From the NCBI RefSeq assembly GCF_037975245.1, contig NC_092577.1, positions 31,624,398-31,688,397 on the forward strand: a stretch of 64,000 nucleotides of DNA. The letters are read 5' to 3'. The DNA is from Apostichopus japonicus (lineage: Eukaryota; Echinodermata; Holothuroidea; Aspidochirotida; Stichopodidae). Shown piece after piece: positions 18,701 to 45,174 of this stretch. Below the pieces are notes generated by a model. The model was not told the origin of the DNA. It was given only the letters and a program-made list of their open reading frames with translations, and ran no database searches. Made by a program: the position numbers and the translations under genes. Position 1 is the stretch's first letter, and each line of letters opens with the position of its first letter.

Positions 18701-21700
18701 CATGAGGAAGTACAACTGAAAGGTTATTATCAATTTTTTGCTTCAATTTCCTTCCTTTCTGCTGATAAAGTCAAAGTGGTACTCTCTATTCAGATAGCGT
18801 CGATTCGTAGTCTGAAATGGCAGAAAATTTATGGCATTCTTAGCTACTGATAAAGGCAGCTTTATAACAGCAAATCAACAATTCATTTTCAAAATTAGAT
18901 TCATGACGGGATGTCTAGTTTTGGGTTAGTTTCGTCACGGATGACAAAAAGGGGGTGGGGGAGCCTGGGAGGTGAAAGAAAGTTGTCCATAAACTTTAAA
19001 AGGGCATAAAACTGTTGAGGTATTGTATAATTTCAGAGAGGATTATTTGCTTCTGGTACATTATGAAAGTCTGCATTTATAATTGCTCTGCCTAAAACAG
19101 TTTGACAGATGGGCTAACAAAGTTTAAATAACATCGCTTCAAACTTTTTTGTAGAGACCACATAGCGGGTCGTCAGCACAAAAAAAAGCATGAATAATTC
19201 TTCAGGGTAAAGAGGTTAACAGGTTACCTTATTCGCAAGAAGGACGCATGGAATTTTTGAACCGTCTGGAAGCTGAACTTTGGCATCTAAATCGTTCTTC
19301 CATTTGGCGACGGCTTCAAAGGTCGATACCCTAGTGACGTCAAAGACGATGAAGCAGCCGACTGCCTCTTTGTAGTAGACTCTGGTCATATTGCCAAACC
19401 TCTCCTGACCTGAAGAAAAAAATATATTAGTAAATAAATAAATATAAATAAATATAATTAAATATAAATAAATATAGATAAATATAAATAAATATAAAAA
19501 TAAATAAATAAATATAAATAAATAAATATAAATAAACAAATATAAATATAAATATAAATAAATATATAAATATAAATAAAGATAAATAAAGAAAAATAAA
19601 GCTAAAGAAATATAAATAAATAAACATAAATAAATACATAAAATAAATATATGTAAATATAAATAAATAAATAAAATAAATGTATTTTTAGAAACACATG
19701 TCATATATGTAACATCTTTGTACCAGTTTTTTGTTGTTGTTGTTGTTGTCTGTTAAGGTAATTGATAGATGCAACTGTTTACTCAATAGTACAAGACATG
19801 CCAGTTCATTAAACAAGCAACTCATAATGTGCAATACATGTGTACCAAAAACAACCACAAGACTTTATCTTTATTCTTGGGTTATTAAAGACAGTGAGAC
19901 TGGTACATTACTTACAGCTAATAAAGAAATCATAAGCCAAACATGATTAATGAGAAGAAAATTCATGATTGGAATGGGAATCAACTCCCTTTATACTCCC
20001 CCTCCCACCCCCCCCACCATGTCTTGACTTCAACACCCAAACATGATTAATGAGAAGAAAATTCATGATTGAAGGAGGGGGAACCAACTCCCTTTATACA
20101 GCCCCTCCCCTCCCACCCCTCCACTCCCTCCCTCCCCCTCCAAGTCATGACTTCAACACCCAAACATGATTAATGAGAAGAAAATTCATGATTAAAGAAG
20201 GGGGAACCAACTCCCTTTATACTGCCCCTCCCACCCACCCACCATATCTTGACTTCAACACCCAAACATGATTAATGAGAAGAAAATTCATGATTGGAAT
20301 GGGAATCAACTCCCTTTATACTCCCCCTCCCACCCCCTCCCCACCATATCTTGACTTCAACACCCAAACATGATTAATGAGAAGAAAATTCATGATTGAA
20401 GGAGGGGGAACCAACTCCCTTTATACTCCCCTCCCCTCCCACCCCCTCCAAGTCATGACTTCAACACCCAAACATGATTAATGAGAAGAAAATTCATGAT
20501 TGAAGGAGGGGGAACCAACTCCCTTTATACTGCCCCTCCCCTCCCCTCCCACCCCTCCACTCCTCCCTCCCCCTCCAAGTCATGACTTCAACACCCAAAC
20601 ATGATTATTGAGAAGAAAATTCATGATTGAAGGGGGAACCAACTCCCTTTATACTCTCCCTATCCCCCACCCCCCCCCCCCTCCACTCCCTCCCCTCCCC
20701 CTCCAAGTCATGACTTCAACATCCAAACATGATTAATGAGAAGAAAATTCATGATTGAAGGAGTGGAACCAACTCCATTTATACTACCCCTCCCCTCCCC
20801 CTCCCACCCCTCCCCTCCCACCCCCCACCAAGTCCTGACTTCCACACCCACGTATCTTATGGGACTCCTTACTTCTCACTTCTGGTTTAAAATCCTTCTG
20901 ACCACATTCTTAGCATTTCTAGTTCCTGTTTTCTATTTTGTTTTTTCATGTCAAATGCTATCATATTCAAATGCAAACCTGCCCTGTACAAAGTTGTAAC
21001 AGTATCCATGCCATGTATGCAAGATACCGGCACAGAACTTTAACACTATGCAACTAGTGCTCACATCCATGCACATGCTTGACACTGTATTTATAAAAAA
21101 GGTTATAACCCACACAGCATTACAAGCAATCTGAAAACTGCTGACTGGCCTAAACTTTCCACATGCACAGGGTTCTGAATGATATTAAAACTGGATGCAA
21201 AATTTTCTAATCACTATATCAAATCTTTGTTCTTTGTACCTGCTTCTAATTAAACTAAGGCCTTTTCCAGCCGTTTGGAGATTATGCATTAGTTGCAGAT
21301 TAACACCATTAAGCAAAGAGAAAGAATATGAGATTAGCAGAGAAGTAAACTTTGAGGTCTAGCCTTTAGATTATGGGTCATCATAAACTAATACTCTAGC
21401 ACAGCACGGATCTAAACGGTATGGCAGAGGAACTGCGTAAAAATGAAAATACTGTTTGGTTTCATTGGAGTTATGATAGGACTTTGGGTTGGGCAGAGGG
21501 AGGAGGTGGTGGGGGGGGGAGGAGGTGGGGGAGGGGAAAAAAGTACCAAATATCAGATCAAAATGGATGTACTGTTTGATGGATGATAGGTGATCTTCTA
21601 TTTTTTCATACAATACTACATTATAGGCCTGGTGATGCATACAGCATGGTAAACTGCCATCGAGGCCTGGTGATGCATACAGTACGGTAAACTGCCAGTG

Positions 21701-23931
21701 GCAAGTACATACAGTTGACACCAGTGGCAAGTGCCTGCAGTTGACACCAGTGGCAAGTACATACAGTTGACACCAGTGGCAAGTACATACAGCTGACACC
21801 AGTGGCAAGTACATACAGTTGAAACCTGTGGCAAGTACGCAGAATATTATGGCATATGATAAAATATGATGAAACATAATAAAAATAACAGTGAAAAACC
21901 ATACCTGCTATATCCCATAACTGTAGTCGTATTAATGTGTCCGCATCCCAATTGATGACTTTTAAGGCAAAATCTACTCCAATCTGAGAGAGAGATGAAC
22001 TGTCAAGGAAAAACTTGGTGGGTGAAACCCTTCACACTGAGGTCTGTAAATTTATGTCGACAAGTACAGTAGACGTATTGCCCGACAGGAAATCACGACG
22101 TTTCGAGATGAAATTTTATGAAAGTCACAAGTAACAGTTTTTAAAACATATTTAAAGTAACATTTTTGTGTTTTATTTTTGGTTAAGTGACATGTTGACT
22201 ATCAAAGCACTAACCTACAGTAAGTTCAGGAAAGCTAAAAGTCATAAATTCAAGAATTTTAGTAAACTGATGTGATTTTAGATAGAATATATACAATTTA
22301 TCAATTGCTGGTTTTTTACAGAATTTGGAGTATATAAATTTATATAGTGGTACCTCACTCACAGTTAAATTGATTTTTTTCTCCATTTTTTGGGTTTGTT
22401 TGTTTGTTCTTCTGCTAACCTTTCTCTTAATTGCACATCAACGTGAATATTCAAAGTTAAGGTGGTGAGTATAAAGAGAGAATCGCAAAATTTATACTTC
22501 GTGAAACCTATCACTGTCTACTCTAATCGATTCAAATGTGAAAGTACCACAGTCCTGAACCAGGTACGGCAGCTCATAAATTGCGAGCATCGATGGGTTT
22601 GTTTCGGTTATAGTCGGAAAAACAAAGACAAAAGTTCTACGTTCGTCGATGGAAACAAAAAGAAAGGAAACCGATAATGGACCTGACTTTATATTGTTTT
22701 TGGGGATAAGTACACTAAGGAAGTACTTGAAACCTCATTTGATTACAAGAGTCGTTTTGGACAAGTATTCTTTTTCACGACAAAAAAAAAAAACAACAAC
22801 TGGGAAAGGGAGAGCGGTACAGTAGGGCTAGTGAGTGAGGTAATTAATACGCAATATATGCGTAATTCAAAGACAAAGTGAAAAAATATATTTGTACGCG
22901 ATCTCTTTAATCTGCGAGTCAGATGGTGTTCAAGTCGGGTACTTTGTGGCCACCTAAGAACTTCGAGATTTTGTGAGCTTGTCTTATTTAGTGCTCAGAT
23001 ATATAGTATCCACTGGGGGGTGCAACCACTACTTTGGTACTGTGGGTGGGGGCGGGAAGAGGACAAGATGTCATGGAGAGGAGTGTTTAATATACTTTGG
23101 AAAAAGTGGAGGGTGCTAAGATGAGAAACATCTGTGCTACATTTTGCAAGTTTTGAAACAACGTTGACGAATTTCTGCCTGTTTACAGTAGGTTGTACTG
23201 CACATAATATTTTTTATGTATTACACTTATACACTAGTATTATTATTATTTTTTGGCTGCAACATTTTGCCTGCCTGTGGAAATGGGGGTGGGGGAGGGG
23301 CTCCCCTGGTTTTTCTTCTGGTATAGGGGGCTGCACCCCAGTTACCCATAGGATTATTGTTATTTTTCCAACTACAATTTCAAAAACATTGAGCATGCAC
23401 TTTTAAGCTCAAAAACAAGGGGAACAAAGAAGCTACCTGTACCAATTTATCAATAAACTAATTACCTTGTGTTAATAGAAGCCTCAAACAGGTCAATGAA
23501 TTTATCTGTAAACAGACTTTGAACTTCACATAGCTACTAATAACAGGTCAACACTTAATCAAATAAAAACATATAAAGAAGCACAATCTGATGGCTAATA
23601 CCCAGGTACAGTAGGGCTTAAATCTTTACTGTACAAGCAACTGTCCTGATAAATCAGAATATCCTGAATAGCTTTAAAAAAAATTGGTACCAAAATTACC
23701 ACCTGCACTGACATACGCAATTCAGATTATTTCTTTATTTACAAATTATCATTTCTCTACAAAATATTCAGAGTTTCTAAACAAATTTTGGTACATGTAT
23801 AAAAAGGATACGGTCGCTCTGTAATGTTGTGAGAAAAACTGATGAACATATCGTTTGATGACACTGGTCTTGCCAACTCCTAGATCCCCGATGACCAGCA
23901 CTTTATACAGGTGCTCCCTCTTTTCTGCCAT
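15710..23931 (-). CDS. RAB32: Ras-related GTPase Rab32
   Basis: Small GTPase of the Rab32/38 group, which acts on mitochondria and lysosome-related organelles. Five exons on the minus strand: 23812-23931 (ATG), 21905-21983, 19228-19409, 16400-16543 and 15710-15823 (TAG). They splice in frame with GT donors and AG acceptors to give 212 aa (human about 225). Visible motifs: P-loop GDLGVGKTS (about residues 16-24); switch I SQHYRATIGVDF spanning exons 1-2; the Rab32/38-specific WDIAGQERFGNMTR, with Ile where most Rabs have Thr; LLANKCDQ at the exon 3/4 join; ETSAKENINIDEA; and a C-terminal GSCC double-cysteine prenylation site. Intron 2 holds two minisatellites plus an AAAT-type array, and intron 3 holds a SINE. 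It is convergent with SMNDC1. Rab32 and Rab38 cannot be fully separated by eye, but length and sequence favour Rab32. Confidence 0.95.
16590..16832 (+). repeat. tRNA-derived SINE, copy 1
   Basis: Head GTTAGCTCAGTGGTTAACG is a Pol III A box and GATTCGAGTC a B box, followed by a unique body and a tail of ATACATAC repeats. A second copy (26311-27164) shares head, body and tail. It lies in Rab32 intron 3, antisense to the gene. The tRNA part is too degenerate to be a functional tRNA. Confidence 0.8.
19428..19690. repeat. AAATA/AAAT tandem array abutting Rab32 exon 3
   Basis: About 260 bp of AAATA and AAATAT units. On the minus strand this is a T-rich tract ending within about 20 bases of the exon 3 acceptor (exon starts at 19409), so array length could affect branch-point placement. 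Confidence 0.85.
19938..20850. repeat. Minisatellite of about 100-130 bp units in Rab32 intron 2
   Basis: Eight copies of a unit containing ACATGATTAATGAGAAG, then a C/T-rich stretch and CTTCAACACCCAA. Copies begin near 19940, 20040, 20162, 20267, 20366, 20471, 20600 and 20727. The pyrimidine segment varies in length between copies. Confidence 0.9.
21686..21840. repeat. 26-bp minisatellite beside Rab32 exon 2
   Basis: Five to six copies of a 26-bp unit containing GACACCAGTGGCAAGTACAT. It begins about 65 bp inside intron 2 from the exon 2 donor (minus strand). Because 26 is not a multiple of three, it produces repetitive open frames in several frames. Confidence 0.85.
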
Positions 23932-29239: not shown

Positions 29240-30238
29240 CAGGCGCGGCGGAACGGGAAAATTATTGGGGGGGGGGGGGGGCTAATGTGTGGAGACAATA
29301 TAAGCGGAGCGCCACCATCAGTTGGCGCGGTGCGTACAAGAAAATTTTGGGTTTTTCAAACCCCCAGATGACCGGAAACGGCACTTCCCGAGTGTTTTAT
29401 GCTGCGAATACCTAGCCCTAAAATATGGGTCTCAAGCCTGCAAATTCTCAGATTGCACGTTAAAATCTGTAAAAACATTGTAATTTGTATATTCGATGGT
29501 GTTTTAAGAGAGCAGCTATTACTCGTAGTGCACTCGCAAAGACGTTTTTGAGTGTAGTAAATTACTACTTGCAATTAAATGCAATAATTAAATAAATGTC
29601 ATAAGAAAAAAACTGAAAGCATTTCTTAATGTCAACAATTGGGTAATTCCAAAACCATGTGCAGTTGCCAACAAATTTCTACGAACCAAGCACTGTCACG
29701 AATGCATGTACCCTATACAGTACAGGTGAAATGCTAATATTGTGTTTTTGTTATCACACTTAAGACACTTTAGAAGGATAAACCCTACGAAAGATACATC
29801 TCCAATTGGAAGAAAATGTCCCTGAAGGATATATCCATGGGAAATGTGCTACCATTAGAAGGATATATCCTTCAGGGGATGTTGGAGAACTGGCTGAAAT
29901 GAGGCAAGTCATTGGCCTAAGACGAAGTTGTGTTGCGCTTACCGGTACTCACACACACTGCTTCCACTTTTCACGGGCGTGAAGACGCGGTTGGGGTTGT
30001 GGTCTATAGCCAGGGGACGGGCTGAGGGTCCCCCCAGCATTTACTAAAATTATTACACCTATATAGTATACGTGTGCATCGGACAGATCGACAAGTATGC
30101 ATTGAAAAATGGGCAGATGCACGTTTCGGAGCCTTGGTAAATATTGGGGGGGGGGGTTATTATGCATTTGCCCCCTCAACTTTTTTATTTGGGGGCTGAG
30201 CCCCCCCCCCCCCAAGCCCCCCGGTTCCGCCGCCACTG
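29240..30238. mobile_element. 1-kb non-autonomous hAT-type element
   Basis: 999 bp with termini CAGGCGCGGCGGAACGGG and complement of CAGTGGCGGCGGAACCGG. An exact 8-bp target duplication AAATGGAG lies at 29232-29239 and 30239-30246, the right copy at the end of a SINE. Carries the GCGCCA...TTGGCGCG module at about 29305. No transposase frame seen. Confidence 0.9.
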
Positions 30239-30246
30239 AAATGGAG

Positions 30247-30420
30247 GTAAACGACAAAGGCAAAATGAAAATATCTAGCCTATATTAAAATTGTAGTGGA
30301 CTGGAAAATCCAGAACAGCGACAAAACTTCCAGCCTCCACCGGGATTCGAACTTGGGCCTCCCGCTTCATATGCGGACAGCCTTACTAGGCTATGGACGC
30401 TGATTGTATGTCCAGATTGT
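30247..30420 (-). repeat. tRNA-like SINE fragment (palindrome family)
   Basis: On the minus strand it carries AGCCTAGTAAGG and GTTCGAATCCCGGTGGAGGC, the same tRNA-like unit as the palindrome arms, followed by the GTCGTTTACCTCCAT tail. It joins the hammerhead-bearing repeat at about 30420. Confidence 0.75.
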
Positions 30421-30462
30421 ATAGCCCAGCCGTGCTATGGAAGAAATAAGGTTACACGATCG

Positions 30463-30526
30463 TTTGCGTCCAGTTGTCTGATGATCGCCGCACAGGCGTG
30501 AAACTCGAGTTACAATTTGCTGTAGT
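30463..30526 (+). ncRNA. Type-I hammerhead ribozyme motif, copy 1
   Basis: The conserved core is present in order: CTGATGA at 30478-30484; stem II CGCC (30486-30489) / GGCG (30495-30498) with loop GCACA; GAAAC at 30500-30504; a self-complementary stem III ACTCGAGT at 30503-30510; then T30511 as the predicted cleavage base. Stem I pairs GTTGT (30473-30477) with ACAAT (30512-30516, last pair a wobble). The layout with a very short palindromic stem III is that of hammerheads in Penelope-like elements and animal retrozymes. Caution: the 10.1/11.1 pair closing stem II is T-T, not the usual pair. About 105 bp including this motif recur at 36966-37073. Confidence 0.7.
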
Positions 30527-30883
30527 TGGGTGGGTGGGTGGGGGGGGTATAATAATATCCTTTCCCAGTTTCCCAAGAGTATACGTGGCTGCTCCACTGA
30601 GGGGGAAAACTGATGTCATTGGGTCTTTGCAAATTGTTTTGGAAATTAGAGGGTGAAAAAAGTTGTACAAAACATGATCATGTTGTACAATTAGCAGATC
30701 CTAGGGCTTTTGCAATGTCCTGTCTATACTGGTATGCGGGGGTAGGGGTACGACCCTCCCTCAAAAGTATATGTGGTCGCGCAACTGCGATAGGGTGGGG
30801 ACAATATAATCTGCATCTGAGGTAAATGCGTATTCAAATTTCGAAGACCCATGGTACGACCAAACCTCCATTAATGTTTTTTT
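30527..30883. other. No gene seen
   Basis: G-rich runs and short open frames only. Confidence 0.35.

Positions 30884-34936: not shown

Positions 34937-34980
<44 letters not shown>
34935..34980. repeat. (TA)n microsatellite
   Basis: Pure alternating TA left of the palindrome; a second (TA)n at 35666-35694 ends the right arm. Confidence 0.95.
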
Positions 34981-34983
<3 letters not shown>

Positions 34984-35069
34984 ATGGAGGTAAACGACAA
35001 AGGCAAATGAATATATATAAATGAAAATCGTAATGAGTTGGAAAATCAAGAACAGTGAAAAAACTTTCA

Positions 35070-35141
35070 GCCTCCACCGGGATTCGAACCACGGGCCTCC
35101 CGCTCTGTACGCGGACACCCTAACCACTAGGCTATGGACGC
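35070..35141 (-). repeat. tRNA-like SINE head, left arm
   Basis: Mirror copy of 35544-35615. Confidence 0.75.
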
Positions 35142-35543
35142 TGATTGTATGTCCAGAGGTTCGAAACCGGTAAGGAAGATCGTAATTCCACTGTAGGCGT
35201 TTGTCACCTATATCGAACAATACTAGTTCTGTTTTTGGTGACATATTTTGCCTTACTCTAGAGATCAAACATGATGCTATCCAACTCGAAAATCATTTGT
35301 GATTCCTAAAGCCGGATCTCGAAAGAGATACTTTGAACAGACGTCTGTTCAAAGTATCTCTTTCGAGATCCGGCTTTAGGAATCACAAATGATTTTCGAG
35401 TTGGATAGCATCATGTTTGATCTCTAGAGTAAGGCAAAATATGTCACCAAAAACAGAACTAGTATTGTTCGATATAGGTGACAAACGCCTACAGTGGAAT
35501 TACGATCTTCCTTACCGGTTTCGAACCTCTGGACATACAATCA

Positions 35544-35615
35544 GCGTCCATAGCCTAGTGGTTAGGGTGTCCGCGTACAGAGCGGGAGGCCCGTGGTTCG
35601 AATCCCGGTGGAGGC
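35544..35615 (+). repeat. tRNA-like SINE head, right arm
   Basis: 72 nt with acceptor arms GCGTCCA / TGGAGGC (six of seven pairs), anticodon stem TCCGC / GCGGG and loop GTACAGA, A box TAGCCTAGTGGTTAGG and B box GGTTCGAATCC. The T stem has two mismatches and the loop would give anticodon ACA, which is not a normal tRNA. I take it as a SINE promoter, not a tRNA gene. Confidence 0.7.
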
Positions 35616-35662
35616 TGAAAGTTTTTTCACTGTTCTTGATTTTCCAACTCATTACGATTTTC

Positions 35663-35696
<34 letters not shown>

Positions 35697-37005
35697 CATA
35701 TACACAGAGACGCATTCAACTATAACCATGCAGATAGGCAGTAACCGATGCGTTTGAAAATTGACGTCAACATTCATGTAATATCATGTTACTTTATAGC
35801 CACCATCTATCAAGTTTATGATTGGCTATTGTCCATTGATTTACCGATTCCGATTGGTCCGTGTATACGTGGGTGCTTATGGTAGCATACGCCCATTAAA
35901 AGCCCCATTGACTTACACACTAAATCACAAAAGTAAAGTGGTCTCTAAGTCTAGATAGAAGTTTCACTAGCTAAATGCTACCCATCACCGGATAGCTGAC
36001 AAGTTGGCCTTTTATGGCACCTTCAATTTTTTGTACCATGACCGCGCAGATTTTTTGCTATCCGAGCCGGAAGTTTTCGTCACTTGTAAACAAACCTCTT
36101 CACTCAGTAGTAAACAATTTTCCTACGCTACTCCTGGGAGGCCTAAAGGGGTCTAAAATTGCCTTAATTGACCCAATTTTCTCGCAACATGTACTTCCAT
36201 TCATGCTCTTCAACATGCAAGCCATAAACAAACTAGATCATGATTGATAACAGGTCAAAAAAGATGTTCTCCTGCTGCTTTTTGGCACTTTTCCTGAAAT
36301 GAGAACATCCGAGCTGATTGATATACACTCTAATATAGGAGGAGTATGCCACCTTATATGAATTTTGTACACGTTGAGTTTACTATATTTCGAAATAAAC
36401 AAGGTGTGGTTTAATCATAGAAATTGAAGTAGTTCAACTTCAATGGGTTCAATACATTTCTTGTTTTACCATCTCATTGTTTATGATTGTGTCAGCTTCA
36501 ATGTCAGATTTACTTTACAAAAAAAAAAAAAAAACCAGTGAATTTGAGAAGTGATTTGAAGACTTAACTTCTGCTTTACATTACTTATCGCTGATCGTAT
36601 ATACGAAAAGGGAATTCCCTCTTTCTTTAAAGAAAACGCATTAAATTGGATAGAGATATACTTATTGATAAAGAGATAGAGAGAAATAGAGATTGACAGT
36701 CTGTAAACTTGTTATTGTATTATTCCACCAAAATAACCCATGGCTGTCAAAGGCACGCTTTTGTATAGGGCCCGGAGAGATGTGTAAACGAACGCCTTCC
36801 CTCCAAGAGAAAAGAAAAATCCTTCCCTAGTAATTGTCATATATTAACTGTCAGTCTAATATATCTGGCCAGTACAACCTTTGCGTGGAAGAAATTAACA
36901 ACATGGACAGACAGAAAATAAAAACTGAGCTCATCTCAAAATATTGTCACCATGGTGAGAGACCGCCCACTCAGCCGTGCTATGGAAGAAATAAGGTTAC
37001 ACGAC

Positions 37006-37070
37006 CGTTTGCGTCCAGTTGTCTGATGATCGCCGCACAGGCGTGAAACTCGAGTTACAACGTGCTGTAG
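37006..37070 (+). ncRNA. Type-I hammerhead ribozyme motif, copy 2
   Basis: Same order as copy 1: CTGATGA at 37023-37029; stem II CGCC / GGCG around loop GCACA; GAAAC at 37045-37049; palindromic stem III ACTCGAGT at 37048-37055; T37056 as the predicted cleavage base. Stem I pairs GTTGT (37018-37022) perfectly with ACAAC (37057-37061), the better of the two copies. The shared repeat spans about 36966-37073, after which the sequence becomes ATT-rich and then (TA)n. No Penelope-type reverse transcriptase is seen nearby. Confidence 0.72.
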
Positions 37071-37515: not shown

Positions 37516-40500
37516 CTATATTGGTCTCACTTTCATTTCGGTGAACTTTATGTTAGCATTGCCACCACGTAGATTTTTCCACGACATTTTTGTTATGTAG
37601 GGTCCGTTAAGGTTCGACGAAGCACACGCATCATACCACCAGCCACCTTTATTAGAATCACGGGCACAGTGTCCGGACGCTTTGTTATCATTGTCTCGGT
37701 CCAAAGTCGAAAAGCCTATACCCAAGTGTCTTCTCATTGCATAGCCGTTCTCAAAGGGATCATCTAAAAGTATAAAAGGTGAATGCATATAAACTAGCAA
37801 TATAGAACATGTAGCTCATTCATGGGCGTCAGTATATAGCTAAAGAAACCCACTGAGAGGATGGCAAGCAAACTCCAGTTTTCAATAACCGGTGAAATGT
37901 AAATAGAATTAACCGGTTTACTAAAGGAGAGTCTAAATTCATCCGAGCCCAAACAAAAATAATTTAAAAAAATCTACATTAAATGACCGATATGCACATC
38001 ATCACAACATGTAGTACAGGCTAACCTATTCACTGTAGTAGGTATAGTACACGCCGTATTTGTCCCGGGAAGCACGGAACGCTTGGTGTTAAACTTGGAT
38101 CGCCCAGATCCAATGATTCTTTGTCAGTATACTACTTAATCACATTGCAATGTTAAGTTGGTTAGTCAAGCTAATAACCTATTCTTCAAAGAATTAGGTA
38201 CGGTTAAATATCTGCATTGCCATAATTTAGCAACGTTGCCCCCCCCCCCCCCCCTCTATAAGTCAGTTTCTCCACTATGGACCTTGTTTGGAATAAATTG
38301 TTTGTAGCTCATTTTGTTCGAGTTCCAAACGCATTTCAGAAGGGGAGACCTGGGCCCCCGAACTACCCACCTGGTCCCGCCCATGGAGAGCCTTTCGTCA
38401 TGTGTTATATGTGCTTATTTGGACTTATAGGCAGGCAGGGCGGATCCAGTATTTCATAAAGGAGAGGTCTGGAAATGAAGCCCTTGAAATAGACTAGTCT
38501 TGTAAACGCAAGGTTGTGCAGATTACTACTTTTGAATCTTTGTGAGCGTAGGGTTGAAAAGGGAGGGTCTGCAACCCACCCCACCCCTCAGTCCGGATTC
38601 GTGCCTGTAATGTTGGGTAAACAATAAATTAATTTACTTTAATTTGACTTGTTATACATATATGTTTCCATAAATTCTCGAACCTGAATTTCCACTGTAA
38701 TCTCCGAGTATTTCCAAGCGAAATTGATCGTTTTCGTTGCTGGTTCGAAAGCTATCAAACTTTGCGAAGTATGGATCTCCAAGAGTGTTGACGAAATCGA
38801 TGCGAAGTTCACACAGCTCTTGATTGGTAAGGTAATAAAGTTTTTCATTACCGATCCAAAACTCCTGATCTGCCTGACCAAAGCCTTGTTTGTAATCAGC
38901 CCAGTTGCGGTAAAAATCGACCGAACCGTCAACACGACGCTGAAAGACCTATAAATAACAAGTACCAAATATAGGAACAAATAATATCTAAAATTGACGG
39001 ACGATAACAAGTTGGACCATTTGTAGTTTTCAAGTTATCATCACGTGACAAACAGGGATCGGGTCGAGGCGGAAACCGGAGGAGGGGAGTGGGGATGGAT
39101 GGGGGGGGGGGGGCTCTGTCATGTGCCCCTCCAGTTTGGTAAGAAAAAGCCAAAGTCGTTTTGTTAAGAAGTGATCATTTATATATAATTAGAAAGAGCT
39201 CTTTTGTTGTACAATGAAAACAAAGTTTTTTAAAAGTACCGGTGTCATGCAAAACATACACATAATGGAAATTGTGGTACAGCATGAGCAGACAGTTTTG
39301 AGGTTTGATTCTCACACAGCTTCCACTACTTCTATCGAAGTTTGTGCCACCTCCCCTCTTCATCTCCTCTGAGACTGAACCCCACTCCCACGACCAAGTC
39401 CAAACTTAATTTGTCACGTGTACCAGACATGAAGGCCATTAATCATTGTCATACATAGTGTTTGTACGTTTGGGATTTCTACGTGGATGATATTCCGGTC
39501 AAAATTTGCCTAGTATAGAACGACCTAATATTAACAATCTTATCATTGGTTTATATCTTCTGTTGATCAACTATATACAAGGGTATGGAGCTATCCTTAT
39601 AATCACCCATCATTTCAAGACTACTGATTCCTAAAATGTGTATGCATGAATACAGCTTCTGCAGTGGGATTCATGACATATTAGGTAAACTCACCGTCCA
39701 TCCTCCTCCGTCTGACATATTGCAATAGACTTCAAAGGATGACCCGGGCCAGTTGATTGGTTTGATCTCGTATAGGCCACTATCAGTACATCCGGCGTTG
39801 TAGACCTCCAAACAGTTACGTAACATTCTGCAGCTGACAGCGGATGTTGTGTCAGCTTCAACGACGACAGAAGCAGAGGAGACCATGTCCTCTTGTTTCA
39901 GTGTGGACATGTCATGTTGCAGTGTGGACGTGTCCACATGCATTGTGGACACGTCATATTGCAGAGTTGACGTATCATCGTGCAGTGTGGTCATGACATG
40001 TTGCAGTGTGGACCTGTCGTTCTGCAGCGTTGACGTGTCCTCATACAGTGTGGACACGTCATATTGCAGTGTGGACTTTTCTTGTGGCAGTGTGGACGTG
40101 TCTTTATGCAGTGTGGACATGTCATGTAGCAGCGTGGACGTGTCATGTGGCAGTGTGGACCTGTCGTTCTGTAGCGTTGACGTGTCCTCATGCAGTGTGG
40201 ACACGTCATATTGCAGTGTGGACTTTTCTTGTGGCAGTGTGGACGTGTCTTTATGCAGTGTGGACATGTAGTGTAGCAGCGTGGACGTGTCATGTGGCAG
40301 TGTGGACCTGTCGTTCTGCAGCGTTGACGTGTCCTCATGCAGTGTGGACGTGTCATATTGCAGTGTGGACTTTTCTTGTGGCAGTGTGGACGTTTCTTTA
40401 TGCAGCGTGGACATGTCATGTAGCAGCGTGGACGTGTCATGTGGCAGTGTGGACCTGTCGTTCTGCAGCGTTGACGTGTCCTCATGCAGTGTGGACGTGT

Positions 40501-41180
40501 CATATTGCAGTGTGGACTTTTCTTGTGGCAGTGTGGACGTTTCTTTATGCAGCGTGGACATGTCATGTAGCAGCGTGGACGTGTCATGTGGCAGTGTGGA
40601 CCTGTCGATCTGCAGCGTTGACGTGTCCTCATGCAGTGTGGACATGTCATATTGCAGTGTGGAGTTTTCTTGTGGCAGTGTGGACGTTTCTTTATGCAGT
40701 GTGGACTTTTTATGTAGCAGTGTGGACCTGTCGTTCTGCAGCGTCGACGTGTCCTCATGCAGTGTGGACATTTCATATTGCAGTGTGGACTTTTCTTGTG
40801 GCAGTGTGGACGTATTCTCATGCAATGTGGACATGTCATGTAGCAGTGTGGACGTGTCATGTGGCAGTGTGGACCTGTCGTTATGCAGCGTTGACGTGTC
40901 CTCATGCAGTGTAGACGTGTCATGTGGCATTGTGGAAGTGTCATCATACAGCGTGGACCTATCATACTGCAGTGTGGACGTGTCCTTTTCCAAGTTGGTC
41001 GTGTACTCCAATACTGTTGACTTTCCCTCTGTCGCAGATGCATCATTTGGCAGCGTAAACTGGTCTGTATAAAAGCAATAAACGGTCCCCTCATCATGCG
41101 CAGTGTAACATTCAGATTACATACATGGCAAAAATAAACACAGATCAACCAGTCAGGCTATCTATAAATATATATGTATA

Positions 41181-41395: not shown

Positions 41396-41632
41396 GTGCT
41401 ATATAGCCTGACAGCCGGAGCATACAAAGATCACGTGATGGTATCAAACCTATACAGTAATTCTTAGTGACTAGTTACTTAGTTGATTCTTCCTGGTAGG
41501 CTTGTTACAGAAACAAACAAAATCAAACAAACACGAATGAAACAAAATATGGCCAGCATAACTCACTTTGGTAAAAGGCACGTTGTCTCTTATGTTCCTC
41601 TGGAAACATCTCAGCAAATTTGCAGGCCTTAC
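37516..41632 (-). CDS. Fibrinogen-related protein with long heptad-repeat stalk (5' end unresolved)
   Basis: Secreted fibrinogen-domain protein of the FREP/ficolin/angiopoietin superfamily; the family includes innate-immune lectins. Exons (minus): 41567-41632, 39695-41064, 38684-38948 and 37516-37763 (TAG). Phases fit at each join. Order: [28 protein letters not shown]; 52 heptads of S-T-L-x-x-D-x; a linker with [10 protein letters not shown]; then a full fibrinogen C-terminal domain of about 210 aa. The domain shows [32 protein letters not shown], the calcium-site motif DRDNDN, and the second disulfide pair in GHCARD and WWYDAC followed by SSNLNGPY. The donor after 38684 is the weak GTTCGA, but the frame joins cleanly. 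A signal-peptide exon at 42177-42216 (MTMMFILTVCLIK, phase compatible) is a guess. The visible part is 648 codons. The fibrinogen domain is certain; the 5' structure is not. Confidence 0.88.
39887..40978 (-). repeat. Coding minisatellite: 52 x 21 bp, with 147-bp higher-order unit
   Basis: Each 21-bp unit encodes one heptad of the form STL-xx-D-x. Over 40076-40663 the heptads recur in a fixed order of seven (STLQYD, STLHED, STLQND, STLPHD, STLLHD, STLHKE, STLPQE), giving four near-identical 147-bp units. Edge heptads are more divergent. Leu falls on one hydrophobic position of a coiled-coil register and Thr/Met/Arg/Lys on the other; the region is also Ser/Thr-rich, so either a coiled coil or an O-glycosylated stalk is possible. 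Confidence 0.95.
41160..41392. repeat. (TA)n microsatellite
   Basis: About 230 bp of TA with GTA, CTA and AAA interruptions, in the intron upstream of the stalk exon. It produces spurious Tyr/Ile frames on both strands. Confidence 0.95.
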
Positions 41633-43083
41633 CTTCGAGAATGAAAAGAAGACAGTTTTGAAATGATGATGCAGTCAGATCTTGCAACAAGTTAACAGGT
41701 TTGCCTAAGTAATTCACAACAACTTTTCGTTCGAGTATTACTGCCTCTATCACAAGACTATTTCTACTTTGTATTCGAAACTTATAAGGGAGCAAACAAA
41801 AAACAACTAATTGTCATGAACTCATAACTACCACATTCCTGGTGAAGCTATGCGAACAATGAAATCTAGCTAAATTATAATTTTTTTGCAATATTTACCG
41901 CAATTTTAAATTCCACAATTTTATTACGGGTTTTTTTCTTTCAAACAATCGAACTGCAACTGGAGCGCACAATTGCTACTGGCTTATCAGGACTGCACAC
42001 AATCTTCACAAACACGAGTAGCAGACGACACGATTCGTTGCTCTTGAGAAACACAAGTCTCCTTGCCGTTTTTGCGCGTAAAAAAACATGACAGGATGGG
42101 ATTAACAGCCGTACGCAATCTATAAGACTCTGGCAGTAGATGTTCGACTAGCAGCCAGGGTCCATGCAGATCAAACCTTTTATGAGACAGACAGTTAATA
42201 TAAACATCATTGTCATCCAATTCAAAGCAATAATTCTTAACTTTACACAACAGAAAACCAGAGCCGTATCCCTGGAAGATGGACTTGAGATAGTAACCGA
42301 AATATTAAGATGAACAAAACAATGAATTGAGAAAACGTCATGAGAAAGCAGATAAGCAAGAGCTTACTTAAAGATCTGCTTTATTGGCTCCAATTATAGC
42401 ACGCTATAGCTAGGAAAGTTTTGTGATTACGTATTCGACCTGCCACGGTCGTAAATCGACCTCTGGGCTCTACAATTAGCCTGCATAGCTTCTTAACACA
42501 ATTCGGCTCTTTGTGTAAACACTGTGTGGAAATATGTTCATGACTACAGTGTAGTTAATCATATGGCGTTCACACAAAGACCCTCATACAAGAAAAATAT
42601 GTGGCAGGCGTTGCAGACTAATTGGTAAGCAGAGGTCATTTTACAACCATGGCAGGCCGATTACATAATCTCAAGAAACTTTTTCCATAATAGCGTGCTA
42701 TAGTTGGGATCTATACAGCAGACCTTTAACTTAAATTGGACATTATAACATGACAACACAATTCCCCATAGTCATGAAGTACTCCCGTCAACATATACTG
42801 TTAGTAACAATTCATGATAATATGCTTGATGTATTCCTCTACGACAGCCTATTTGACGATGACTTTTTTGTTTGAATTAATATCTTGATATTGACAAAAG
42901 TTCAGGCAATTTATATGAGGAAACTTGAGACATTTAAATATACAAATCACTTTGATTTTGATTTTCAGCAGATCAATATAGTGATCCGGACAAAACTTTC
43001 TTCAAAAAAGTGTATTTAAATTGCAGATATATGTTACACAAATACGCTTTTCGACAGGGGGAAAAAACAAAAAAACATCATGA
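41538..43083. repeat. Tandem duplication, copy 1 (carries the FREP upstream exon)
   Basis: Matches 43409-45148 directly, for example GAAACAAAATATGGCCAG, CTTTTCGTTCGAGTATTA, ACTGCAACTGGAGCGCACAA and ACACAAATACGC. It contains about 560 bp (roughly 42083-42640) that are missing in copy 2. An 87-codon Cys-containing open frame at 41987-42250 (minus) lies in this copy and is interrupted in copy 2; it is not recognised. Confidence 0.85.
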
Positions 43084-43437
43084 ACAAATCAAACCCCGGA
43101 TCTTGTGTCACAAACCGAAGTCCGTACCACTCGACCACAGTGATTCCTACCTTCGCCTGATGAGTCCCAAAAAAAGGACGAAACCGGTCGTTAAGTGGGA
43201 TTTTTCTTGTGTGTTATTGTTTACTTATTTGCTATATATCTGTCATACCACTTGCTACACATTCATTTCGTATTTACGGCTTGGCTTGCCTATAAAAAGA
43301 GTGGTTATTCTGTGTAACATTGTCAGATTCAAAGCACCAGAGGTGCACTCTGTACACTCATAACACTTGGGTAATACGCCCTCAATGACAGTTATTCAAA
43401 GCCACCAGTGAAACAAAATATGGCCAGTATAACTCAC

Positions 43438-43503
43438 TTTGGCAAATGACACGATGTCTGTTATGTTCCTCTGGAAATGTCTCAGCGAATTTGCAGGCCT
43501 TAC
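43438..43503 (-). CDS. Duplicate of the FREP upstream exon
   Basis: 66 bp, the same length and phases as 41567-41632, with the same acceptor context (TCTTTCTCGAAG) and donor GTGAGT. It reads [18 protein letters not shown] then VICQ: open, but six of 22 residues differ from copy 1. It may be an alternative exon of the fibrinogen-related gene or an unused duplicate; no other exon of a second gene is seen. Confidence 0.5.
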
Positions 43504-44062
43504 CTTCGAGAAAGAATAGAAGACAGTTTTGAAAATGATGATGCAGTCAGACCTTGCAACAAGTTAACAGGTATGCCTTAGTAATTTACAACAACTTTTC
43601 GTTCGAGTATTATCTGCCTCTATCACAAGACTATTTCTACTCTGTATTTGAAACTTATTAGGGAGCGATGTACGATGTACGGCGTATACGCAAATCTGGA
43701 CTGACTTTGTCAATGAGGAGACGCACATAAAAAAAAATTAAAAAAGGACATTACGTACAAACCATGGAAGGCCATGTGACTTGCTCCCTTTTGGCACTCA
43801 ACTCTTATACAGTACTCCGTACATGTGTATTCCAACAACAACAACAACAACAAAAAAAAACCCATGAACTCATAACTACCACATACCTGGTGAAGCTATG
43901 CGAACAATGTAATCTAGCTAAATGATCATTTTTTTCAATGTTTACCGCAATTTTAAATTCCACAATTTTATTACGGGGTATTTTCTTTTAAACAATCGAA
44001 CTGCAACTGGAGCGCACAATTGTTAGGCCTATTAGCTTATCAGGACTGAACACAATGTAAAC

Positions 44063-44525
44063 CAGGGTTTCCTTAACTTTATCCCCCCAAAAGCCCCCCG
44101 TGGATGTGAGAGTCCACGAACCCCCAACGTTTCGACACGATCTGAGTCATTATTATACTATCGAGTACGCATAACAGTGCTTCGTAAAAGATCAAGTTCG
44201 TAGTGTGATATTGTACTGTCATGCCTACACCAACTTCACCAGAGTCATGCAGCCTGTGTCTGTTTCATAATTCAGTTATTTATCACATGAACGGTACGGT
44301 AAGCGTTTTTTTTTTTTTTTTACGGTAATACTATGGCAACATATGCGTATGGAACGCGAAAAGAGTTTGTCGATAGGTACTTTTGTACATTACTAAATTA
44401 TATGATATCAGATTCTAGTTCAACAAAAAGTACTCTAGGTTTGACTTTTAGAACGTCTCACGCACCCCCTGGGATGGACTCACGCACCCCCTAGTGCTTC
44501 ATGCACCCCAGTTAGGGAACCCCTG
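44063..44525. mobile_element. 463-bp hAT-type element with an empty-site paralog
   Basis: Termini are CAGGGTTTCCTTAACT and complement of CAGGGGTTCCCTAACT. An exact 8-bp target duplication ATGTAAAC lies at 44055-44062 and 44526-44533. The duplicated copy at about 42000 (CACAATCTTCACAAACACG) lacks it, so it inserted after the tandem duplication. No transposase. Confidence 0.93.
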
Positions 44526-45174
44526 ATGTAAACAAAACACGAACAGCAGACGACACGGATCGTTGCTCTTGAGAAACACAAGTCTCCTTTCCGTTTTTGC
44601 GCGTAAAAAGCGCGTTACATAATAGAATTTACCGCCGATTACGTAACCTCAAGAAACTTTTCCATGATAGCGTACTATAGTTGGGGTCTATACAGCAGAC
44701 CTTTAACTTAAATTGGACATTATAACAATACAACATAATTCCTAATAGTCATGAAGTACTCCCGTCGCCATATTAAACACAATTCCTAATAGTCATGAAG
44801 TACTCCCGTCGCCATATTATGTTAGTAACAATTCATTATAATATGCTAGATGAATTCCCCAACAACAGCCTATTTGACGATGACTTTTTTCCCCTCTTGA
44901 ATTAATATCTTGATATTGACAAAAGTTCAGGCAATTTATATGAGCATGGAGGTAAAAACAGAACCTCCATGATATGAGGAAACTTGAGACATTTAAATAT
45001 ACAAATCACTATGCTATTGATTTTCAGCCGACCAATAAAGTGATCCGGACAAAACTTTCTTCAAAAAAGTTATTTTAAATTGCAGATATATGTATACTTA
45101 CACAAATACGCATTTGGACAGGGGGAAAACCCCCCAAAAACATCAGATACAAAAGGGCTTGTCCATCATTCACT

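Follow-up and report, generated by a model that had tools for sequence, protein, structure and literature searches.

Hammerhead motifs with a U-U mismatch at the base of stem II in Penelope-like elements of the sea cucumber Apostichopus japonicus

Minimal type I hammerheads of Penelope-like elements (PLEs) were reportedly described by Cervera and de la Pena in 2014 and by Lunse in 2017. After A15.1-U16.1, the G10.1-C11.1 pair is the most conserved helical pair of the hammerhead. As far as the accessible passages go, published PLE hammerheads are of type I, have a very short stem III suited to dimers, belong to the pseudo-LTRs and are dispersed in thousands of copies (PMC7229834, PMC7761336, PMC6155905). 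The motifs described here are alike in all these respects, but in several families of one genome U-U takes the place of G-C at 10.1/11.1. The mismatch is shared with natural U10.1-U11.1 hammerheads, U-U being the best tolerated mispair at this place (PMC3088659 section 8); it was described as a surprising variation of some hammerheads (PMC3088659), whereas here it forms the largest of the four classes counted. For Aedes and Nematostella repeats, excerpts of the same paper propose that a palindromic stem III, such as is also found here, pairs in a dimer. The consulted parts of PMC11167929 report a direct and head-to-head layout of PLE pseudo-LTRs that agrees with the one found here, and an anole PLE whose hammerhead does not cleave without the PLE protein and is not needed for insertion in vitro; the anole ORF begins at stem II, whereas in the complete element presented below the hammerhead comes after the ORF stop. 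In the sections seen of PMC3846280, Penelope elements of bdelloids and other animals have direct and inverted pseudo-LTRs, with inverted copies lying head-to-head at palindromic junctions, as here, for which self-priming was suggested; the word hammerhead is absent from the main text of that paper, whereas here the junction lies just upstream of a hammerhead core. Animal non-LTR retrozymes likewise carry a type I hammerhead in a small repeat, but according to the available portion of PMC7229834 they form tandem repeats of 150-450 bp, which are not seen for the U-U families here.

Judging by these partial texts, the literature already contains PLE hammerheads, stems III of palindromic sequence, U-U as a tolerated mispair and PLE copies lying head-to-head. 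A multi-family set of U-U hammerheads was not met in the literature passages searched, which does not imply its absence from print. Hammerhead ribozyme and sea cucumber came together there only in one unrelated CRISPR review, and sequence words from the motif were not found in this literature, the scope of which did not take in the key PLE hammerhead papers.

The window, that is, the whole stretch of 64,000 nucleotides analysed here, contains the features collected in Table 1. The preliminary description had recognised all catalytic blocks of a hammerhead in the correct order at copy 1, and this is confirmed. A permissive scan of both strands of the whole window, tolerating a 10.1/11.1 mismatch, returned copy 1 and a site at 37023 only. 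The core CUGANGA...GAA, with A15.1-U16.1 and H17, is complete in copies 1 and 2; the stems of copy 1 are present, and U-U stands in place of the closing pair of stem II. Since natural U-U hammerheads have been reported (PMC3088659), U-U at 10.1/11.1 is treated as a variant and does not exclude the motif from type I hammerheads. The permissive motif is expected 1.2e-5 times per window (Markov simulation; 20 matches in 18.2 million CTGATGA contexts; 11 CTGATGA sites), a post hoc figure because its definition was drawn up after the motif had been seen. Copy 1 is a real hammerhead-type motif, far from chance.

Table 1. Positions of the hammerhead motifs and adjoining elements, counted from the first letter of the window.
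Feature	Position	Strand	Length	Remarks
Copy 1, very probable PLE fragment	30424-30525	+	102 bp	ORF end, stop region, hammerhead
tRNA-headed SINE	30237-30416	-		head-to-head with copy 1; outside the element
Hammerhead-type motif, copy 1	30473-30516	+		stem I, CTGATGA, stem II, GAA, palindromic stem III, T17, stem I
Copy 1 stem I, 5' strand GTTGT	30473-30477	+
Copy 1 CTGATGA	30478-30484	+
Copy 1 stem II hairpin	30485-30499	+		includes the U10.1/U11.1 mismatch at its base
Copy 1 U10.1 and U11.1	T 30485; T 30499	+
Copy 1 stem II strands CGCC / GGCG	30486-30489 / 30495-30498	+
Copy 1 stem II loop GCACA	30490-30494	+
Copy 1 GAA	30500-30502	+
Copy 1 palindromic stem III ACTCGAGT	30503-30510	+
Copy 1 T17	30511	+		predicted cleavage would come after T17
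Copy 1 stem I, 3' strand ACAAT	30512-30516	+
Copy 2, longer 3' PLE fragment	36864-37070	+		ORF C-terminal region and hammerhead; 5' limit approximate
Hammerhead-type motif, copy 2	37018-37061	+		permissive scan
Third hammerhead, other type	43139-43212	+		canonical G-C at 10.1/11.1; palindromic ACCGGT stem III

The covariance-model check proposed earlier for copy 1 failed: searches with the Rfam hammerhead models over 601 bases (30200-30800) and 63 bases (30464-30526) gave no match there even at E<=10, so that copy 1 falls into a blind spot of Rfam. The third hammerhead of the window is matched by Hammerhead_HH9 (31.1 bits, E 7.8e-4), below the gathering score of 52. At 43090-43212 this canonical G-C hammerhead directly adjoins, head-to-head as in copy 1, a degenerate opposite-strand sequence of tRNA-like character, in which the tRNA model found no match. 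At 41532-45153 the HH9-like hammerhead lies between two direct units, about 2 kb from each other, that have diverged (75-93% identity in pieces). Host exons on the minus strand at 19219-22031 and 37516-41116 belong to a Rab32/38-like GTPase gene and a fibrinogen-C-domain gene; the latter contains a repeat of 21-bp period, and some 450 bp separate its last recognised exon from copy 2, which is antisense to the gene and lies beyond that exon.

Copy 1 occupies a repeat that the preliminary description had rightly noticed and put at 105 bp, its length being about 102 bp; the copy 2 repeat (36972-37070) is 97% identical to it and has no SINE beside it. A genome search with the repeat gave at least 42 matches (40 of 157 candidates scored), and 37 stretches (L009-L045) were taken around 40 matches outside the window. 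Agreement among the copies typically begins about 42 bases ahead of the repeat start and ends about 130 bases past it, though some copies agree much further. This search, suggested earlier as a way to learn what normally flanks the repeat, revealed the end of a PLE ORF upstream in the longer copies and the SINE in none of the 41 other matches. The majority letters upstream of the repeat in 16 selected copies read KTELISKCRHGNRPPSRARKK followed by a stop. An ORF end of the K[CS]RH type lies within 160 nt upstream of the hammerhead in 12 of 64 motif occurrences, which correspond to 8 distinct places since four are held in two loci each, and a stop precedes CTGA by 28-52 nt in 11 of these 12 rows. 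Such an ORF end is found at five places in the family of copy 1 (the query family); the stop precedes CTGA by 28 nt at three of them and by 38 nt at one, and the fifth has no stop; where the stop is seen, the hammerhead of the longer copies thus lies 28-38 nt beyond that of a decayed PLE ORF.

Further upstream, L011, L013 and L043 have a decayed ORF in common. Its pieces in L043 and L013 are 49-53% identical over 39-91 residues to the ORFs of L092 and L091 (L043 against L092: 53% over 91 residues), and a protein search with an 81-residue L043 piece gave at least 150 matches (150 of 417 candidates scored), many in long open frames. One of these matches, L092, is a complete relative, in which an 821-aa ORF is flanked by two direct U-U hammerheads 2601 bp apart; the hammerhead core starts 13 nt beyond the stop that ends one unit, with 122 nt from this start to the next open frame. 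Among 14 ORF matches (C1 and C2 below 27.7 Mb, two C2 matches beyond the listed range being left out and the hammerhead places copied by hand from listings), nine have a same-strand hammerhead 346-2254 nt downstream, eight of them U-U and one G-C. We take the L092-type ORF to be Penelope-like, its YRDD, YIGL and SKCRH motifs looking like those of PLEs. Pfam found neither RT nor GIY-YIG in the L092 ORF, the L091 piece and the decayed L043 and L013 pieces, and the link of L092 to RT runs through a weak BLASTP match (E 2e-5) of its RT region to the L068 ORF, in which both RVT_1 and GIY-YIG were matched. When 30 GIY-YIG loci were scanned as possible parents, a role in which they were rejected, CTGATGA...GAAAC occurred in none; a CTGANGA scan of 17 of the 30 detected a hammerhead in L049, a locus above the GIY-YIG cut-off in which about 400 nt lie between the stop and a U-U hammerhead downstream, and the GIY-YIG locus L072 also carries one.

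The family of copy 1 is very probably that of a PLE with many relatives in this genome, and its motifs are linked to an ORF. The earlier suggestion of a short-stem-III type I hammerhead of Penelope-like origin holds, given the ORF end upstream and the complete two-hammerhead relative, and only the SINE as its carrier falls away. Copy 1 is very probably a short and likely inactive PLE fragment comprising the last ORF codons, the stop region and the pseudo-LTR type I hammerhead; it belongs to the PLE as a 102-bp fragment, by alignment to copies bearing the ORF end. Being truncated, it has no element to serve, with its core letters all kept; it is probably dead, and the site itself is an ordinary PLE remnant. 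Relatives of the repeat were not found in public collections of viral and genome contigs, and two bacterial plasmid matches were weak (E 0.08 and 0.9). Upstream of a decayed PLE end, L091:3-1868 holds a 621-aa open frame with no Pfam match at E<=1; the structure predicted for an 84-residue L091 piece was poor (mean pLDDT 55.7) and was not used. Two other candidates were rejected: CTGATGA lying over the tandem stops of a protein ending AMEEIRLHDRLRPVV (copy 2 frame), as the extra base that sets the frame is absent in most other copies and Pfam gave no match, and a tandem 85-bp unit within copies 2 and 1, whose alignment was not clearly above shuffles (45 and 214 of 1000 reach it).

The preliminary description had named, as one possible refutation, a T-T mismatch shown to abolish activity in all genomic copies. 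Comparison of the copies shows that the mismatch is not decay. In an alignment of 43 query-family copies (A2; four partial copies skipped, the second copy in L041 left out of 44), 85 of the 86 letters at 10.1/11.1 are T, with some bias towards U-U possible because the similarity search that yielded them started from a U-U query. Against this single departure in 86, the same copies depart at 28 of 470 core letters and 150 of 1160 other letters (Fisher p=0.07 and p=2e-4, respectively), and their hammerhead core is intact in 21 and broken in 22. A second family was retrieved with the pattern GTTGTCTGANGANCGCN6GCGNGAAAC (stem II CGC/GCG), which leaves 10.1/11.1 free: it has 537 matches, with 0 in the reversed control, and T at both positions in every one among the matches listed, which are the first part of the 537. 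The query-family result comes from the 43-copy alignment, the free-position search applying to the second family only. U-U occurs in two families independently of the search pattern; at the base of stem II it has been inherited by this set of families and does not reflect damage. Genome-wide, pattern searches located U-U at 1707 places (323 in the reversed control), G-C at 559 (101), C-G at 487 (355) and A-U at 730 (342), and a stricter U-U pattern at 1162 (20). A frequent listed A-U match is the hammerhead-core-like repeat CTGAAGAAGATCCTGCTAGGATTGAAAC; it stands at several listed places, and its possible stem II contains a bulged G; because of such matches U-U is not the sole non-G-C class.

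The listed matches of the stricter U-U pattern include families with stem II CGCC/GGCG, CGCT/AGCG, CGC/GCG and TGC/GCA and differing loops, and a family (L077, L085) with stem I GCTAT/ATAGC instead of GTTGT/ACAAC. In an alignment of 28 U-U hammerheads from several families (L090, having no stem I, was dropped ahead of the count), 95.5% of cells are paired (shuffled mean 92.6; 0/500 reach it), 16 cells are changed on both sides (shuffled mean 4.4; 0/500) and 4 pairs are changed on both sides (reached in 20/500), a control that overstates the case as the rows are related; slid structures pair 26-42%. Further pair types are not more numerous in this alignment than in shuffles (467/500 reach it). 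Since U-U, like the T before CTGA and GAAAC, was demanded by the search pattern for most rows, its constancy here is no evidence. Stems I and II change compensatorily between families, which supports the fold of a hammerhead despite the silence of the covariance models.

A more far-reaching reading, with a probability of about 0.35, is that of a PLE hammerhead lineage in which G10.1-C11.1 was replaced by a fixed U-U, kept while stems I and II drifted compensatorily, the mismatch being a working design; it might, for example, keep a single ribozyme silent until stem III pairing of two copies or binding of the PLE protein. Alternatively, although we think it rather unlikely, a formerly G-C PLE hammerhead could have become inactive lineage-wide, U-U being a defect spread by dead or protein-driven elements. 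Loss could be tolerable, as in vitro insertion of the anole PLE does not require its hammerhead to cleave (PMC11167929, accessible passages); G-C hammerheads coexist in the genome, one of them beside a PLE ORF, and in the 28-sequence alignment the constancy of U-U is in large part a product of the search pattern. However, U-U is the least variable column pair in the family found by similarity to a query that is itself U-U, it is invariant among the listed second-family matches with both positions free, and changes on both sides of stems I and II between families are not expected of a dead motif.

A hammerhead look arising by coincidence, or in a purely DNA-level repeat that is never cleaved, is very improbable. 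It would agree with the missing Rfam match, with the folding energies and with the variation inside the query family, where covariation among the 43 copies does not exceed shuffles (score reached in 113/500) and 87.2% of cells are paired against 86.1 in shuffles (reached in 9/500); a lack of covariation is also expected if inserted copies decay freely. Folded back on itself around a 4-base loop, stem III ACTCGAGT has 2 bp; between two molecules it has 8 bp. Free monomer folds of five stretches of copies 1 and 2 show no gain in stability over dinucleotide shuffles (z 0.63 to 1.28), and the hammerhead is calculated to lie 3.8 kcal/mol above the MFE as a monomer in both copies and 2.8-5.4 kcal/mol above the dimer MFE as a dimer; free folding does not favour the hammerhead in either copy. 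Against coincidence stand the expectation of 1.2e-5 per window and the recurrence of the architecture in several families whose stems differ, both sides of stems I and II having changed.

Adjacent pairs within 200 bp, taken from the first 100 places listed for the stricter U-U pattern, comprise 20 divergent, 0 convergent and 0 same-strand ones; in the divergent pairs spacers measure 6-53 nt, and the junction of the inverted copies is immediately upstream of the core. Direct (in L092) and head-to-head inverted (the 20 divergent close pairs) pseudo-LTRs, as in PLEs, are thus both present. The divergent pairs fit the picture given in the available text of PMC3846280, so that nothing new is needed to explain them.

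The SINE fragment noted earlier beside copy 1 exists, but it lies on the opposite strand, head-to-head with the motif and not fused to it. The tRNA model scores 33.9 bits at 30332-30400. All 41 matches besides copy 1 lie within query 24-128, that is 30423-30527 of the window, while the SINE ends at 30416; as they all start at query 24 or beyond, the junction is private to copy 1 among the matches. A second SINE copy in the window (34980-35157, 83% identity) has no hammerhead repeat, and the motif is not a recurrent part of the SINE body. Copy 1 stands beside an unrelated SINE by chance, in a placement that looks accidental. At 35011-35674, a perfect 332-bp inverted repeat without spacer, with a tRNA-Cys-like SINE head in both arms, is either an assembly fold-back or a very recent palindrome. 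Same-strand repetition in the query family amounts to one direct pair (L014, 318 bp apart), not tandem 150-450 bp units, a comparison made for the U-U families, with direct pairs of about 340 bp listed separately for the G-C class. Outside the window, contig C1:12105679-12119894 has directly paired G-C hammerheads with a distance of about 340 bp within the pair, and some of the pairs recur at about 5.3 kb; pairs like these occur on C1 and C4, and they are either retrozyme-like units or tandem PLEs. That the hammerhead serves a SINE or retrozyme, as a functional part that processes a tRNA-headed or small non-autonomous element, is scarcely credible and for the query family largely refuted. In favour of this reading, the motif lies 57 nt from the SINE 5' end, the 43139 hammerhead likewise abuts a tRNA-like stretch head-to-head, several U-U copies are short and in AT-rich repeats, and the 340-bp G-C pairs are of retrozyme-like size, but the other matches and the second SINE copy lack the combination, the strands are opposite, close U-U pairs are never same-strand among the 100 listed places, and the tRNA model does not match the tRNA-like stretch at 43 kb.

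For the PLE lineage itself, we infer cleavage, dimer use and a role in transposition from the sequences. Tandem PLE RNA would be cut at its hammerheads, one cut for every unit, into pieces of unit length, most likely by two hammerheads paired through the palindromic stem III. This palindrome is too short for good hairpin closure, for which reason two-hammerhead pairing or the PLE protein would be needed; help from the protein, proposed by analogy with the anole PLE, is plausible since both dimer and monomer hammerheads lie above the best folds.

In the portions seen of PMC11167929, insertion of one PLE in vitro proceeds without cleavage, and the hammerhead of this PLE depends on the PLE protein. 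What deserves a specialist's attention here is the set of PLE hammerheads that carry U-U, show compensatory changes in their stems and share one genome with G-C hammerheads; an intact PLE with U-U hammerheads in such a genome makes the role of PLE hammerheads testable. If the U-U members never cleave, the fold would be kept for some other reason; if they cleave only as dimers or with protein, the mismatch would be a switch.
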